From: Akkermansia muciniphila
GTDB lineage: Bacteria > Verrucomicrobiota > Verrucomicrobiia > Verrucomicrobiales > Akkermansiaceae
Direction of reading: 5' to 3'
Assembly (NCBI GenBank): GCA_945888515.1
Contig: CAMDAD010000007.1
Span: 88,995 to 152,994 of the forward strand
DNA: 64,000 nucleotides
Position 1 is the first letter of the stretch. Every line of letters starts with the position of its first letter. A model generated the notes under the pieces. It did not search any database and had not been told where the DNA came from. It saw only the letters and a program-made list of their open reading frames with translations. Below are positions 47,879-57,676 of the stretch, in pieces. Both the position numbers and the translations under genes were made by a program.

Positions 47879-48367
47879 TTACTGCGCAGGCGCTTTGTCT
47901 CCTTCAGCTGGTGCCTCCGGAGCAGTCGGTTCCGCAGGTTTCTCTTCCGCAGGTTTCTCTTCCGCAGGTTTCTCTTCCGCAGGTTTCTCAGCAGGAGCGG
48001 GAGTGGCCTCGATCGGCAATTCTTCGCTCAGGCTTTTGGGCTTTTCCTCGGGAGCCGCCGCTTCTTCCGCAATCGCTGGGGCCTTGGCCAGTGAAGAAAT
48101 CTTGTTTTTCTTTTGCACCAAAATCGCCAGCGTCAGGGTGAGGACGAAAAACAGCACCGCTAAGTAAACCGTGCCTTTTTGCAGAACATTGGTCGTGCGC
48201 GCACCGAACAATTGATCGGTCGTATTCGCACCGAACGCTGCACCGAGGCCCTCTTGTTTCGGCCGCTGCATCAGAACCAGTAGGATCATCATCAAGCAGA
48301 CAAAGACGTAGATGACCAGCAAAGCGGTGGTGCTTACATTGAGAAGATTGATACCAAGAAACGTCAT
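47879..48367 (-). CDS. secG: Preprotein translocase subunit SecG with long acidic/Pro tail
   Basis: Two-helix SecG core: LLVIYVFVCLMMILLVLMQRPKQEGLGAAFG (signature QRxKxEGLGxAFG) and VYLAVLFFVLTLTLAILVQKK. The cytoplasmic C-terminal extension of about 75 residues is rich in Ala, Glu and Pro with four copies of the unit EKPAE, coded by a 15-bp tandem repeat. SecG is usually 70-110 residues; this one has 162. ATG 48367 (MTFLGINLL) is the start; the track ORF begins 17 codons earlier. It assists SecYE in protein export. Confidence 0.92.
   Translation of the reverse strand: MTFLGINLLNVSTTALLVIYVFVCLMMILLVLMQRPKQEGLGAAFGANTTDQLFGARTTNVLQKGTVYLAVLFFVLTLTLAILVQKKNKISSLAKAPAIAEEAAAPEEKPKSLSEELPIEATPAPAEKPAEEKPAEEKPAEEKPAEPTAPEAPAEGDKAPAQ
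47931..47990. repeat. 15-bp tandem repeat inside secG
   Basis: Four back-to-back copies of TCCGCAGGTTTCTCT (the last ends in A). It codes for the EKPAE units of the SecG tail. Three units are identical, so slippage could change copy number in frame. Confidence 0.9.
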
Positions 48368-48583
48368 GGGCGCGGGACTATGAAGACCAAAAGCTGACTT
48401 GTAAAGGTTAGTTTTCAAGAATCTTGTGCGCGAACAATCTTGAGGAAAAGGGGGATAGTTTTCTCTTTTCTATCCAAAAAATCATCGATCTCAGGGGGAA
48501 ATCGTGCTCTCGGTGGTGAAAATGGCGTGATCTTGTCGGCAGACTTGCATTCGCAGAAACCTGTTCTATCCCTTACCCGAACC

Positions 48584-49036: not shown

Positions 49037-49145
49037 CTGCCGTTGCCTGTTTCGCTAACGACTGCATGTGACGACTTCGTCACCCACGCAAACTCGTCGC
49101 CCTGACCCGCTTTGCCATGCTCGCATAGCCACGAGAAAAACACGT

Positions 49146-51068
49146 ATGCGCATCGACATCATCACGGATACTTTCGCTCCTGACATCAACGGAGTCGCCA
49201 TGACACTGGGGCGCCTCAGTGCTGGGCTCATCGCTAGCGGTCACCGCGTCACGGTGATTTGCTCAGGAGATCAATCGACCTCCTCCACCAGCATCGCCGC
49301 CATTCCTTTGCCCGGCTACAAGGAAGTGCGCATCGGCATGCCCGGTCCGTTCAAGCTGCGCAAGCGCTGGCTGAAAAAACGACCAGATGTGATCTATGTA
49401 GCAACCGAGAGCCCGCTGGGCGTTTCCGCCGTGAGTGTCGCCTCAGGACTGGGCATCCCAGTGACTACGGGCTTTCACACGAATTTCCACGAATACATGG
49501 AGCAATACAAACTGAAGGCGCTGCAACCAGCGGCGATGAGTTACCTGCGCCACATTCACAGCCGCGCCCATGCCACCATGGCACCGAGCCAGGAAGTGGT
49601 CGATATGCTCCAGCGCGAAGGGATCAAACACGCTCACCTGTTAGGTCGTGGCGTGGATACGCAATTGTTTTCACCTACCCGCCGCGATGCCTCCTTGCGC
49701 GCGTCATGGGGCGCTGTAGATACGACTCCGGTCTTTCTCAGCGTCGGTCGCGTGGCGGCAGAAAAAAACATTCCTCTGGTCATGCGTGCCTTCGAGCAAG
49801 CGCACCAAGCCCAACCGCAAGCCCGGTTTGTTGTGGTGGGCGATGGCCCCCTGCGTGAGTCCTGGCAAAAAGCCCAACCATGGGTGCATTTCGCCGGCAT
49901 GCAGCGCGGTGAGGATCTGGCGCGACACTACGCCTCCGCCGATGTCCTGCTTTTTCCCAGCGAAACGGAAACTTTTGGTAACGTGGTGCTCGAAGGCATG
50001 GCCAGTGGACTCGTAGTGGCGGCCTACGATTACGCCGCGACCGCGCAACACATCCGTCACGAAGAAAACGGCATCAAGGTCGCGAAGGGTGATGAAAAAG
50101 CCTGGCTGGAGCAAGTGCTAGCCTGCTGCGACCTAACGACTTTAATCCCCGTGCGAGAAGCCGCCCGACGCAGCGCAGAGCCGTTGTCGTGGGATCACAT
50201 CGTCGAACGCTTCGAAGCCATTCTCGCGGCATCCGCCCGCACGCGCGAGCCGATGCTTGACGGCCAAGGCAAGCGACTCAAGCCAGAGAAATTTTCCTGC
50301 CGCACCGTGTTTGTTTCCGATATCCATCTCGGCACCCCCGAGTGCAAGGCGGATGAAGTCGTTTCCTTCCTCAAGCACCTGCGATGCGAGACTCTCATTC
50401 TCAATGGCGACATCATCGATGGCTGGGCTCTGCGACGCGGAACACGTTGGCAAAATCGACACAGTCGTGTGATCAGAACCATCTTGAAAAAGATGGAAAA
50501 GGAAAATACCGAGGTGATCTACCTGCGCGGCAATCACGATGACATCCTCGAACGCTTCCTTCCCCTCAGCTTCGGCTCGATCCGTATCGTGAAAGACTAC
50601 ATCCACCTCAGTCCTAACGGAAAAAAATACCTCGTCATTCACGGAGATGGATTCGATAGCGTGGCCACCAATCACCGCTGGCTGGCGATGTTGGGAGCCT
50701 TCGGCTACGACAGCCTGCTCGCGATGAACCGAGTCTACAATAAATGGCGGTCGATCATGGGCAAGGAATACTACTCCGTCAGCAAGGCCATCAAGGGCAA
50801 GGTCAAGTCCGCCGTTTCCTTTGTGGACAAATACGAACTGCAATTGCAAAAACTCGCCCACCAGCGCGAGTGCCAAGGCATCATCTGCGGCCACATCCAC
50901 ACACCTGCGGACAAACAAGTGGAGGACATCCACTATTTGAACTCCGGCGACTGGGTGGAAAGCCTGAGTGCGATCATCGAGCACCACGATGGACGCATGG
51001 AGCTCGTGACCTATCAGGAATTCATGCACCGCATCGCGGATGAAATGCAGGAGACCCTGAAAGATTGA
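49146..51068 (+). CDS. Fusion: GT4 glycosyltransferase + LpxH-like metallophosphoesterase
   Basis: 640 residues with two enzymes in one chain. Residues 1-370 are a GT-B glycosyltransferase of the MgtA/SqdX type: MRIDIITDTFAPDINGVAMTL, GFHTNFHEYMEQYKLK, LGRGVDTQLFSP, FLSVGRVAAEKNIP and the EX7E region FPSETETFGNVVLEGMASG. Residues 395-640 are a calcineurin-like phosphoesterase of the COG2908 (LpxH-like) type: FVSDIHLGTPE, LNGDIIDGW, LRGNHDDILE, VIHGDGFD and CGHIHTPADKQ, all five metal-binding motifs. The start at ATG 49146 puts the GT fold at the N-terminus. A role in glycolipid or lipid A-related metabolism is inferred; neither substrate is known. Confidence 0.9.
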   Translation: MRIDIITDTFAPDINGVAMTLGRLSAGLIASGHRVTVICSGDQSTSSTSIAAIPLPGYKEVRIGMPGPFKLRKRWLKKRPDVIYVATESPLGVSAVSVASGLGIPVTTGFHTNFHEYMEQYKLKALQPAAMSYLRHIHSRAHATMAPSQEVVDMLQREGIKHAHLLGRGVDTQLFSPTRRDASLRASWGAVDTTPVFLSVGRVAAEKNIPLVMRAFEQAHQAQPQARFVVVGDGPLRESWQKAQPWVHFAGMQRGEDLARHYASADVLLFPSETETFGNVVLEGMASGLVVAAYDYAATAQHIRHEENGIKVAKGDEKAWLEQVLACCDLTTLIPVREAARRSAEPLSWDHIVERFEAILAASARTREPMLDGQGKRLKPEKFSCRTVFVSDIHLGTPECKADEVVSFLKHLRCETLILNGDIIDGWALRRGTRWQNRHSRVIRTILKKMEKENTEVIYLRGNHDDILERFLPLSFGSIRIVKDYIHLSPNGKKYLVIHGDGFDSVATNHRWLAMLGAFGYDSLLAMNRVYNKWRSIMGKEYYSVSKAIKGKVKSAVSFVDKYELQLQKLAHQRECQGIICGHIHTPADKQVEDIHYLNSGDWVESLSAIIEHHDGRMELVTYQEFMHRIADEMQETLKD

Positions 51069-52675: not shown

Positions 52676-54571
52676 TCAGAGTGAAGGAGCAAATTTTTTT
52701 GCTGGATAAATCAGGGCTTTCTCGCGTCCTTGCAAGACAGCGATGATGCGCTCGAGGATTCGCTGTTGATAGGCTGCCGCGCTATTCGCCCCCTTGCCAG
52801 AAGGGAGCTTTTTGAGACGTTTTTCCATGACGGGCAAAAGTGGTCGCGCTTGTTCACCCATTCGGTCGAGGGTATTCGCTGCCTGCAACGCAGCGTAAGG
52901 CGCCGCATTCTGCAGAAGCACGCGCTCAAGCACAGGCAACGCAGCATCGGCATGACCTTGTTTTGCTAGCGCTTCGGCAGCGGCTACTTGCACGGAAAGA
53001 GCATCGTCGCGGAGCCGCGCGCGCAAGGCTTTTTCCGCATCGGCTGCTTTTTTGCCAAGCACCGTGCATCCTTGCGCCGCCCACCAACGCACGGCCTCGT
53101 TCTCATCAGCGAGCGCCTGAATCAAGGCCGGGAGTTTCGCCGCATCGCGCGAGGAGGCCACCATGGCAAGATCAAAAGCACGCTCTAACGGATAAGCACC
53201 GGGCTGTCGCGAGGCATCATATCCTTCGCTAGCAGAACCCTCGGGCATGAAGCCGTTGTCGACGATTTCCAATGTATGTCGCTTCAAGGCGGCACGCATG
53301 CGCTCGACGGAGGCACGGTGCGCGGGATCGTAAGCGAGATTTTTCACGTTGTCTGGGTCCGACTCCATGTCGTAGAGCTCCTCACTGGGCTTGCTGCCCC
53401 AGAACATCGAGGTGGCATCGGTGAGTTTCCCCTGCTCCGCCAGCTTCGCCCACGACTGATAGCCGCGCGCCTGAAACATGTAGTTCAGCGGCTGCACGTA
53501 GGGCAGGTCTGGACGGAAATTGCGGATGTAAAGCCAGCGGCGGTCGGCTACCGAGCGCATGGTATCGTAGCGCTCGTCCATGCGGTCGCGGGTGCAAAAA
53601 ACAAATTCGTTAGGCTCGCCACGCGCTTCTCCGGCGAAGGGTTTGCCCTGCATCACCGACGTGGCTTTCAACCCAGCTAGCGACAGAACCGTGGGGCCGA
53701 AATCAGGAAAACACACGGGATCCTTGATGCGCGTGCCCGGAGCGGCGGGAGCGAGGTGACGCCACTTCGGCGGGAAATACACGATCAAAGGAACATTCGT
53801 GCCGCTCTGTTGCAAAAAGCGTTTGCTGCGCGGTAAGACACCGCCGTTATCCGCGAAGTAAAACACGATGGTATCTTCGGCAAGTCCTGATTTTTCGAGC
53901 TCTTCGAGTTTTTCCGCGATCATGCCATCCATTGTGTGAATGTGATCATGGTAGCGCCCCCAATCATCGCGCAGCTCTGGGGTGTCGGGTTGATACGGCG
54001 GAATGCGCACCAGCGCGCGATCCATAGGCGGCGACGAAGGTTTACGATCCTGCACAGGAAACAAGCAACTCTCGTGCGTGATCTCGTGGTTGAAAACGCT
54101 GAAAAACGGCTGCTCCGGCTGGGTCCGTTTGCGCCAATGGGCGTCATTGCCGCTTTGATCCCAGGTCTCTTTGATCGAAATCGGACTATTGTAATCAGTC
54201 TTCGCATTGTTGGTGGTATAGTAGCCGGCCTCACGGAGCAAAGCGGGGAATCCCTGCATCGACTGCGGGATTTTGCCGCCCGCGCGCATGTGTCCCGCCG
54301 GTCCCGAACTAACGGCGAAACTGCCCGTGATCAGCGCAAAGCGCGACGGCGCGCAGACCGGTTGTGAGAAGCAACGCTCATAGAGAATGCCTTCCTTAGC
54401 GAGCTTATCGATCGTGGGTGTGCGTGCGAGTTTATCGCCATAGCAACCGAGAAACGTCTGATTGTCCTCGCTGGTGAGCCATAAAATGTTAGGGCGCTTC
54501 TCCTCGGCAAATCCGATTGAAAATGATAGCCAAACAAGAAAAACGATGATGGGATTAAGTAGATGTTTCAT
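52676..54571 (-). CDS. Secreted sulfatase (type I) with C-terminal HEAT-like region
   Basis: Signal peptide MKHLLNPIIVFLVWLSFSIGFA, then the alkaline-phosphatase-superfamily sulfatase core: RPNILWLTSEDNQTFLGCYG (metal Asp pair), the formylglycine motif VCAPSRFALITG (CxPSR), and metal-site residues in IVFYFADNGGVLPRSKRF. The last 150 residues are helical repeats (EAVRWWAAQGCTVLGKKAADAE, VQVAAAEALAKQGHADAALPVLE) of HEAT type. The start at ATG 54571 is preferred to 54589, which overlaps the upstream stop. It is last of three consecutive sulfatase genes; it probably removes sulfate esters from polysaccharides outside the cell. Confidence 0.92.
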   Translation of the reverse strand: MKHLLNPIIVFLVWLSFSIGFAEEKRPNILWLTSEDNQTFLGCYGDKLARTPTIDKLAKEGILYERCFSQPVCAPSRFALITGSFAVSSGPAGHMRAGGKIPQSMQGFPALLREAGYYTTNNAKTDYNSPISIKETWDQSGNDAHWRKRTQPEQPFFSVFNHEITHESCLFPVQDRKPSSPPMDRALVRIPPYQPDTPELRDDWGRYHDHIHTMDGMIAEKLEELEKSGLAEDTIVFYFADNGGVLPRSKRFLQQSGTNVPLIVYFPPKWRHLAPAAPGTRIKDPVCFPDFGPTVLSLAGLKATSVMQGKPFAGEARGEPNEFVFCTRDRMDERYDTMRSVADRRWLYIRNFRPDLPYVQPLNYMFQARGYQSWAKLAEQGKLTDATSMFWGSKPSEELYDMESDPDNVKNLAYDPAHRASVERMRAALKRHTLEIVDNGFMPEGSASEGYDASRQPGAYPLERAFDLAMVASSRDAAKLPALIQALADENEAVRWWAAQGCTVLGKKAADAEKALRARLRDDALSVQVAAAEALAKQGHADAALPVLERVLLQNAAPYAALQAANTLDRMGEQARPLLPVMEKRLKKLPSGKGANSAAAYQQRILERIIAVLQGREKALIYPAKKFAPSL

Positions 54572-54585
54572 AAAAAGTATGCGGA

Positions 54586-56100
54586 TCATTCTCCTCCGCC
54601 CGATTGCTGTCTGGTCACTCCTGCGGTGAGCGCGTTGTATTTTTTGCGCATCGTTTGCAGGGTCTCTTTTTCGGTGGTGGCGAGGTTGGTGGTTTGTGCG
54701 AGGTCTTTGGTGAGATCGTAAAGTTGTTCTTTGGGAGCATCGGCCTTGACCTGACCGAGCTCATCGACGTCGCTCGTCAGGGTCTTCATATCGCGATAAG
54801 GGATGCTCCAAGGCTTTTCTGGTTGCGGCACGGTTTTGCCACCGGAGCCTTGCTGGGGAATGTAGAGCCATTTCTCATCGCGCAGCGCCAGTCCGCGGGT
54901 GCCGTGATGCATGCCAGTGGTGCGCTTGACGGGTGATTTCACCGGATCAAGAAATGCCGATTTTTCGGATGCTCCATCGGGCGAGGCTTCCGTGGGCAGT
55001 TTGGCTCCAGCGAGATCGGTAAGTGTCGCCATCAGATCGATCTGATGGAAATACTCTTTCCGCTCCGTTCCTGCGGGAATCTTCTGCGGCCAGCGCGCCA
55101 GCAAGGCCACGCGATGACCTCCTTCCCACACGTCGGTCTTCTGACCTAACAATTCGCCATTGCAGCGATGCCCTTTCCGCATAGCCTCGCCATGGTAGCG
55201 CCCGCCGTTGTCGCTGGTGAAAACAATGATGGTATCGCGCGCTAGATCGTTTTTTTCGAGGGCATCGAGCACCACGCCGACGCAGTGATCGAGCTGCTGA
55301 ATATAGTCACCATAAATGCCCGAGCCACTCTTACCGCGAAAGTCACTGCTCGGATTGATCGGGTTGTGCGGTGCCTGCCAAGCAAGGTATAAAAAAAACG
55401 GCTGAGTCGTATTTTTCGATATAATAAATTTCACCGCTTCTTTGGCGGAGATCATATCGATCTTTTCATCCGGCCGCAGTTCCATCGCCTTTTTCCCGCC
55501 CACTTGTTTGCCGTGCGCTCCAGTGCCTGGGGATTTGTCCACGCTAATCGGATCGTTTTTATCCCAGCCGAGAATCGCGTGATCGCGCACGAACACCAGC
55601 GGCGGCTCGGAATGCGTGCGCGGCGTCCCGAAAAAGGAATCAAAGCCGAACTCGAGCGGACCGGGCTTAAGCGGCGCATTCCAATCGACCTCGCGCTGAG
55701 TGCCGAAACCGTTGTGCCATTTTCCTATCGCGGCGGTGCGATAGCCGGCATCGCGGAAGACTTGCGGCAGCAGCACCTGTCCCGGATCGAAGTTGCAAGC
55801 GTAGTCCATGGGACGCGACAAGCGAAAGCCGTAGCGTCCCGATAGCATCGCATAGCGCGAGGGCATGCAGATGCCGCTGTAGGAATGGGCATCAGTGAAG
55901 CGCGCGCCATCCCGAGAGAGCGAATCGATGCGAGGCGTGGCGAGCTTAGTGGCCCCATAGCAGGACAGATCGCGGTAGCCGAGGTCATCGGCCACCATCA
56001 GGATGACATTCGGCTTTTCCGCAGCAGACAGTGGCACGATAGCGACGGCAATCAGTGCCGCACGAAGAGCCAAAGAAATGTTTATACCAATCGAGCGCAT
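54586..56100 (-). CDS. Secreted sulfatase (arylsulfatase A-like)
   Basis: Signal peptide MRSIGINISLALRAALIAVAIVPLSA, then KPNVILMVADDLGYRDLSCYGATK, the FGly motif SGICMPSRYAMLSGRYGFR (CxPSR), AAIGKWHNGFGTQ, FLYLAWQAPHNP and IIVFTSDNGGRYHG. Length 504 residues from ATG 56100; the track start lies 58 codons upstream inside the neighbouring gene. Middle member of the sulfatase trio: 14 bp separate it from the upstream sulfatase and its stop lies 15 bp before the downstream start. Confidence 0.93.
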   Translation of the reverse strand: MRSIGINISLALRAALIAVAIVPLSAAEKPNVILMVADDLGYRDLSCYGATKLATPRIDSLSRDGARFTDAHSYSGICMPSRYAMLSGRYGFRLSRPMDYACNFDPGQVLLPQVFRDAGYRTAAIGKWHNGFGTQREVDWNAPLKPGPLEFGFDSFFGTPRTHSEPPLVFVRDHAILGWDKNDPISVDKSPGTGAHGKQVGGKKAMELRPDEKIDMISAKEAVKFIISKNTTQPFFLYLAWQAPHNPINPSSDFRGKSGSGIYGDYIQQLDHCVGVVLDALEKNDLARDTIIVFTSDNGGRYHGEAMRKGHRCNGELLGQKTDVWEGGHRVALLARWPQKIPAGTERKEYFHQIDLMATLTDLAGAKLPTEASPDGASEKSAFLDPVKSPVKRTTGMHHGTRGLALRDEKWLYIPQQGSGGKTVPQPEKPWSIPYRDMKTLTSDVDELGQVKADAPKEQLYDLTKDLAQTTNLATTEKETLQTMRKKYNALTAGVTRQQSGGGE

Positions 56101-56114
56101 ACAGGTGTGATGGA

Positions 56115-57458
56115 TTATTTTGCGGCCGCCTTGAGTTCCGTTAGACGCGCGCGCATTTCCGCTATTCGTGAGGCCTGCGCCGGATCTTTCGCGAGATCCT
56201 TTTCCTCCTGCGGATCCTCGGCGATGTGGAACAACTGCTCGACCTGAAAGTCCGGCCAATAAAAGTATTTCCAATCCTTGCGCACCAAGGCCTCAGACGC
56301 GGGAATGCGATGGATGTTGCCACCAAAGGCGCTGAACTCATAGAGAAACTCCTGTCTCCATGCGGGTTTCTTTTCCGCGAGATAAAGCGGCGACAGATCC
56401 TGCCCCTGCATGGTCTTAGGCGCCTTGATGCCCGTCGCGGCGAGAATCGTCGGCGCGAGATCGGCATTGAGCGCGAAGTCGTCATTCGTTAGACCGCGCT
56501 TTTCCGCTTTCAGGCGGGGATCGCGCACGATGAGTGGCACGCGGATGCTTTCTTGATGCGGATACCATTTATCGGCAAGTCCGTGCTCGGCGTGGAAGTA
56601 GCCATTGTCCCCAGCAAAAATCACCAGCGTGTTTTCCAACAACCCTTGTTTTTTCAACTCCTCTAACACCTTGCCACAGGTCGCGTCCACTTCGGTGGCG
56701 AGGCGGTAGTAATTTTTCATCATCTCCTGGTATTTTTCCGGAGTGTCGAATCGCCAATGCCAGCGCACGCGACCCTCATTGCGCGCGTCCGAGAGAAACG
56801 GCGGCAGGCGGTTCAATGATTCCTCGGTGGCATTCGGCGGAACGGGAACGGTGACATTTTGATAGAGCGACATGCTCTGCGGCTGCGGCAGGAATTGCTG
56901 GGGATTAAGATCCTCGGCATGCGTGGCAAAAAATGCCAGCGTCAGGCAGAATGGTTTATCCTTGGGCCGCTGCTGCAGGAACTCCAGCGCGTCGTTTTCA
57001 TTTTTCTGCGTCACATGGATTTTGCTACCGCCTTTTTGCTTGATCCAGTGGGTGCCGGAATAGGACCGACCGAAGTCAAACTCCTTCGCCGGAAAATCGC
57101 CATTGTGCCACTTGCCGATGTGGCCGACGTGGTAGCCGTTCGATCGCAGCAAACCGGGATACGTTTCGCTCCAGGGCGTCTTGAATTCCTTCATGGCGAT
57201 GTTCCCATGGCGCGACATCCACTGCCCCGTGAACAAGGTCGCACGGCTCACCCCGCAGATCGAAGTGGTGACGCAACTCTGCGTAAACCGGCATCCTTCC
57301 TTTGCCAGTTGATCAAGGTTCGGCGTTTGCAGGAATGGATGGCCCGCGCAGCCCAGCGTGTCGTGACGCCAGTCATCGGCAAACAACACGACCACATTCA
57401 TCGGTTTCGCCGCATGAGCCAGGGTGAGGCTGAACAATAAAAAGAAGAATGCTTTCAT
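56115..57458 (-). CDS. Secreted sulfatase (N-sulfoglucosamine sulfohydrolase-like)
   Basis: Signal peptide [16 protein letters not shown], then [61 protein letters not shown] and [18 protein letters not shown], metal ligands in [25 protein letters not shown]. The formylglycine site reads CGVSR instead of the canonical C-x-[PA]-x-R, so conversion by FGE should be checked. The overall layout (ADDWRx[19 protein letters not shown]) resembles heparan/sulfamidase-type enzymes. First gene of the trio and divergent from ctaB. Confidence 0.9.
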
Positions 57459-57676
57459 ACCGTGGGAAGTCTTACGCCATTCTGATGCCAAAACCTACAA
57501 GCCGACAACAGAAAAGTCCTCCGCATCCGGGAAAGCATTCTCACGAAATGAAATAAGGCAAAGCGCTCGTTCAGGGAAGCGCTGAAAAATTCGCGTTGAT
57601 CTCCTTGGATGAAATCAATCGACGCAACAAATTGGCGTTTGTGATTTGACCGAATCTGTGCAAAGTGGCGGCGCAC

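Follow-up and report, generated by a model that had tools for sequence, protein, structure and literature searches.

The PlcP-Agt lipid renovation pathway consists of a phosphoesterase and a diacylglycerol (DAG) glycosyltransferase encoded by paired genes under Pho control (PMC4796936, PMC8528852, PMC9239053). Under phosphate shortage, it lets bacteria replace phospholipids of the membrane by sugar lipids. Among its glycosyltransferases, Agt2 makes glucuronosyl-DAG (GADG) from UDP-glucuronate (UDP-GlcA) and DAG; this was seen in vitro as well as in E. coli, and GADG drops strongly in a plcP mutant (PMC8528852). Within the Verrucomicrobiota, a single-amplified genome was found to encode PlcP (PMC4796936), which is reported as absent from verrucomicrobial methanotrophs (PMC9239053). 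The pathway is already known, while its single-polypeptide form appears to be undescribed in the literature searched; our search for a PlcP-Agt fusion or for Akkermansia glycolipids, made outside subscription papers, returned nothing relevant.

We analyzed a gene located in a window of 64,000 nucleotides (the whole stretch of DNA under analysis) from an Akkermansiaceae genome. Whereas the described pathway uses two enzymes from two genes, Akkermansiaceae carry counterparts of both in one polypeptide. The C-terminal metallophosphoesterase (MPE) half has 45% identity to PlcP of P. aeruginosa (PA3219) and 41% to PlcP of Sinorhizobium (SMc00171) over the domain, and shares with them the five metal motifs, including GNHD, and the clade; these PlcPs, however, are separate proteins of ~270-280 amino acids, and the MPE half is part of a larger polypeptide. 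The N-terminal glycosyltransferase (GT) half has 46.8% identity to Agt2 (PA0842) over 98% of the half, including the catalytic motif residues, vs 30.6% to Agt1. Agt2 is encoded by a stand-alone gene next to plcR and not next to plcP, whereas the fused GT half is joined to a PlcP half. Gene order differs as well: in the named records where a plcP-type gene adjoins a GT gene, it precedes the GT, while the fused gene begins with the GT.

Both characterized PlcP sequences were taken from plasmid records carrying chromosomal DNA and were assigned by gene order. We take the P. aeruginosa plasmid gene whose neighbors encode a GT and a cyclase (annotated as CyaB in sister plasmids) to be PA3219, from the order PA3219-PA3218-PA3217, and the gene that neighbors AHL synthase and LuxR regulator genes in a 3.7-Mb Sinorhizobium record to be SMc00171. 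The Agt2 sequence (L131:2989-4209) comes from a P. aeruginosa plasmid, where it is preceded by genes for a phosphocholine-specific phospholipase C and for PlcR; again by gene order, it is presumably PA0842.

From these comparisons and the genomic evidence below, we consider it very probable that the fused protein is a phosphate-starvation-induced, bifunctional PlcP-Agt enzyme that converts phospholipid to DAG and DAG to glycosyl-DAG. According to this proposal, the C-terminal PlcP half would, in the Mn-dependent manner of PlcPs, cut a membrane glycerophospholipid into DAG and a phosphorylated head group, the release of which would free phosphate, and the N-terminal Agt2-type half would move a sugar from a UDP-sugar onto the DAG, giving a phosphorus-free glycolipid.

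One reading frame for two predicted catalytic halves

The fused gene is a complete ORF with no internal stop (Table 1). Pfam analysis of the protein identified Glyco_transf_4 (residues 14-173), Glyco_trans_1_4 (195-327), and Metallophos (386-587) domains, each above its gathering score. In the GT half, E275/E283 form the EX7E pair of retaining enzymes, and H111, R202, and K207 are conserved, as in Agt2. The MPE half harbors the full set of metal-motif residues (D392, H394, D422, N463, H464, H499, H583, and H585). A longer ORF with a GTG start at 49068 is also open, this GTG lying within the upstream palindrome described below; we took the ATG at 49146 as the start because it is aligned with the invariant N-terminal Met of the fused-protein family. 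The gene is apparently transcribed alone, because the downstream serine dehydratase gene lies on the opposite strand. Elsewhere in the window, positions 47879-48418 encode a SecG-like protein whose tail contains repeated PAEEK units, and three consecutive sulfatase-like genes occupy the minus strand at 52676-57491.

Table 1. Position of the fused gene, its parts, and the upstream palindrome in the window.
Feature	Position	Strand	Description or basis
Complete fused gene	49146..51068	+	640-codon ORF, ATG 49146 to stop ending 51068
N-terminal half: retaining GT-B GT4, Agt2-type predicted DAG glycosyltransferase, residues 1-369	49146..50252	+	Pfam, identity, tree, motif residues, fold
Inter-domain linker, about residues 370-385	50253..50300	+	Near-constant length in 79 relatives; model-confidence dip
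C-terminal half: MPE, PlcP (LpxH2) family	50301..51020	+	Identity, tree, GNHD third motif
Palindromic operator TGTGACGACTTCGTCACC, proposed phosphate-starvation control site	49067..49084		Consensus TGTGAC-N6-GTCACA, 18 bp
Palindrome as candidate phosphate operator of Akkermansiaceae	49067-49084; also L217, L218, L231, L237, L242, L245

An AlphaFold model of the fused protein, built with 39 sequences (mean pLDDT 81), predicts two globular parts with a weaker stretch between them, and confidence dips near residues 360-380. The pTM of 0.59 is low, so that the placement of the two halves relative to each other is not fixed by the model. The fold of the GT half matches that of GT-B retaining enzymes, such as the BshA, MshA, and PimA structures.

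These data agree with the initial annotation, which had described a GT and an MPE with all metal motifs in one polypeptide. It had also raised the concern of a frameshift or missed stop at 50240-50320, which is excluded by independent assemblies: the gene is a single ORF, with an almost constant linker length, in 79 of 80 named contigs (isolates included), and an open frame of fusion length is present in 66 of the 71 genomes of its own family with a strong MPE match (counted by hand). An assembly artefact was rejected on these grounds as the source of the fusion.

Distribution and history of the fusion

The distribution was examined over 289 genomes of the order, most of which have a strong match to the MPE half. 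The fusion is near-universal in Akkermansiaceae, and neighboring families encode the halves in separate genes, with MPE frames of ~300 amino acids in the other families of the order. The SDIHLG motif lies at residue 387-396 in nearly all of the 80 named loci. The fused gene is present in Haloferula luteola, Luteolibacter pohnpeiensis, Roseibacillus persicicus, Rubritalea marina, Persicirhabdus sediminis, and Akkermansia muciniphila CSUN-56, and its closest relative (95% identity) is found in the Verrucomicrobiae MAG RE-26jul17-9. The titles of such relatives, which refer to samples from ponds, lakes, and reservoirs, suggest that the bacterium lives in freshwater.

In the unfused relatives of neighboring families, the MPE gene is in most cases immediately preceded, on the same strand, by the GT gene, and the two often overlap. 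The linkage by which PlcP is recognized, to a gene that makes phosphorus-free lipids, takes the form of a fusion here and of adjacency in relatives, and the history runs from operon to fusion. On the MPE tree, a quick tree, the fusions from Akkermansiaceae group together, and two further fusions (L062 and L087) lie among unfused genes. A single origin accounts for the fusion in Akkermansiaceae, and outside this family it probably arose two more times. It should be noted that L087 is the weaker case, as the match is limited to the first 295 residues of the GT half and the locus comes from a fragmented MAG. Four other apparent fusions (G341, G320, G058, and G105) were rejected, as they consist only of long open frames with the GT in another frame or apart.

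Loss and decay were also observed. In the genus of A. muciniphila CSUN-56, the fused gene is missing from many genomes, and one locus (L103) retains the MPE alone. Two Akkermansia loci, L102 (G086) and L112 (G046), encode a GT half that lacks the first Glu of EX7E and, among other conserved residues, the His and the Lys, together with a PlcP half that retains every metal ligand. Replacement of the GT in these two loci was rejected in favor of decay, the more likely event, as the N-terminus and some flanking sequence are kept and the catalytic residues are lost. A further Akkermansiaceae genome (G164; L121/L043) encodes a free GT of the fused type that has no adjacent PlcP half. Loss and decay in the Akkermansia genus would fit a relaxed need where phosphate is plentiful.

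A palindrome shared with phosphate genes

Alignment of the upstream DNA of congeners identified one conserved block, the palindrome listed in Table 1. In most Akkermansiaceae, its position falls between about -60 and -110, usually from -79 to -92; several Verrucomicrobiales operons with unfused genes carry it at about -74. In the genome under analysis, eight sites were found at one mismatch or fewer, vs seven for a reversed control, so that their number is not informative and the argument rests on where the sites are located: the sole exact match lies before pstB-phoU, and a further site lies before pstS-pstC. Of the 14 exact sites in three congeners, 10 are next to pstB-phoU, pstS, a second pstS, or the fused gene, and the reversed control gave no hits. 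PstB, PhoU, and PstS pass curated cut-offs. This test is independent because the motif was derived from the fused gene and was then encountered at phosphate genes. The fused gene shares this candidate operator with the pst genes, suggesting that it may be induced at low phosphate.

Scans of TGTCA type for a classical direct-repeat Pho box upstream of the fused gene yielded nothing consistent, and the candidate operator is an inverted repeat, whereas the classical Pho box of proteobacteria consists of direct repeats. A one-mismatch palindrome (L224:1501-1518) lies 48 bp upstream of a gene for a nucleotide-sugar epimerase-like protein that might provide the sugar donor, although this location could be due to chance. 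Two one-mismatch palindromes, 78 bp apart, are located upstream of a TonB-dependent receptor gene (L222:1501-1596).

Assignment of the halves and alternative readings

Judged by its sequence, the MPE half is a PlcP and not an LpxH. The initial annotation had called it LpxH-like and had named UDP-diacylglucosamine as a substrate to assay; under such a reading, the MPE half would hydrolyze UDP-2,3-diacylglucosamine and the GT would act on a lipid A intermediate, which we regard as highly improbable. LpxH does belong to the same MPE superfamily (the solved structures nearest to the MPE half by sequence are 5k8k and 5b49), there is a remote similarity to E. coli LpxH (24% identity, E 2e-9), and relatives of the fused gene carry the automatic name "UDP-2,3-diacylglucosamine diphosphatase," which is probably wrong. 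However, the 49 bits scored by the MPE half with the NCBIfam LpxH model are far below the cut-off of 134, and on the MPE tree it groups with both proven PlcPs on the same 62-row side, separated from the LpxH clade by a branch with SH-aLRT 99. All five motifs are present with GNHD as the third, in line with the GNH(D/E) of PlcP, where LpxH has GNRD, the Arg of which is LpxH-specific and separates LpxH from LpxH2 (PMC3087551, PMC5016852). Moreover, P. aeruginosa lpxH2 failed to replace E. coli lpxH (PMC3087551), and PA3219 was later shown to be PlcP (PMC8528852); from size and family, we infer that P. aeruginosa LpxH2 and PA3219 PlcP are the same protein. The genome also encodes LpxI, which accounts for UDP-diacylglucosamine hydrolysis (148.7 bits to PF06230, cut-off 25; 122 bits with the NCBIfam LpxI model, below its 400-bit cut-off), so that lipid A synthesis does not need the fused protein, and Parabacteroides distasonis has both an LpxH-like and a PlcP-type gene. 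Motif, tree, score, and the presence of LpxI led us to reject an LpxH role. UDP-diacylglucosamine is thus an unlikely substrate. The accompanying idea, that the two halves act in succession on a single lipid, has good support.

Regarding the GT half, the earlier label "MgtA/SqdX-type" holds at the level of the GT4 family, which is shared with MgtA, SqdX, and alpha-MGlcDAG synthase, but the closest characterized enzyme that we found is the GADG synthase Agt2. The GT half scores 92 bits with the NCBIfam alpha-MGlcDAG synthase model, far below the cut-off of 400. With 47% identity, which cannot fix the donor, the sugar donor would most likely be UDP-GlcA and possibly UDP-glucose; a TuaD-like nucleotide-sugar dehydrogenase in the genome could supply UDP-GlcA. 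That the same pathway uses a sugar other than glucuronate, yielding monoglucosyl-, galactosyl-, or other glycosyl-DAG, is a serious possibility, if somewhat short of probable: Agt2 itself accepts UDP-glucose in vitro (PMC8528852), and broad specificity is reported for a related glycosyltransferase (PMC8231724), but the kinship with a GADG synthase speaks for glucuronate, and Agt1-type glucosyltransferases form a separate clade (99-100) on the GT tree, a quick tree with modest supports. It is improbable, in turn, that each half has a lipid of its own as substrate and that co-regulation or stoichiometry is the sole reason for their fusion. The lineages that keep a single half, or an intact MPE with a decayed GT, would agree with such an arrangement; nevertheless, the GT-MPE pairing is retained across families as an operon or a fusion, and both halves are catalytically intact in nearly all fused members.

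In P. distasonis, the PlcP-type gene (50% identity) is located directly before a GT that is unrelated to Agt by blastp (L078:4016-5937). This arrangement suggests that a different sugar lipid may be produced in this species by the non-Agt GT beside the PlcP-type gene.

The reading that we favor remains a bifunctional PlcP-Agt enzyme in which both activities would reside in the fused protein. More tentatively, this protein could be a one-protein converter that passes DAG directly between its two sites, is fixed in Akkermansiaceae, and is under the control of a phosphate operator that is palindromic, in contrast to the classical direct-repeat Pho box. PlcP and its partner GT are studied as separate enzymes; their fusion is strong evidence of sequential action and offers a single-protein setting for testing DAG channeling. 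The palindrome represents a candidate phosphate operator for Akkermansiaceae. Finally, the fusion predicts phosphate-controlled membrane remodeling in the phylum Verrucomicrobiota, including gut Akkermansia, in which some species retain the gene whereas others have lost it or carry it in half-decayed form.
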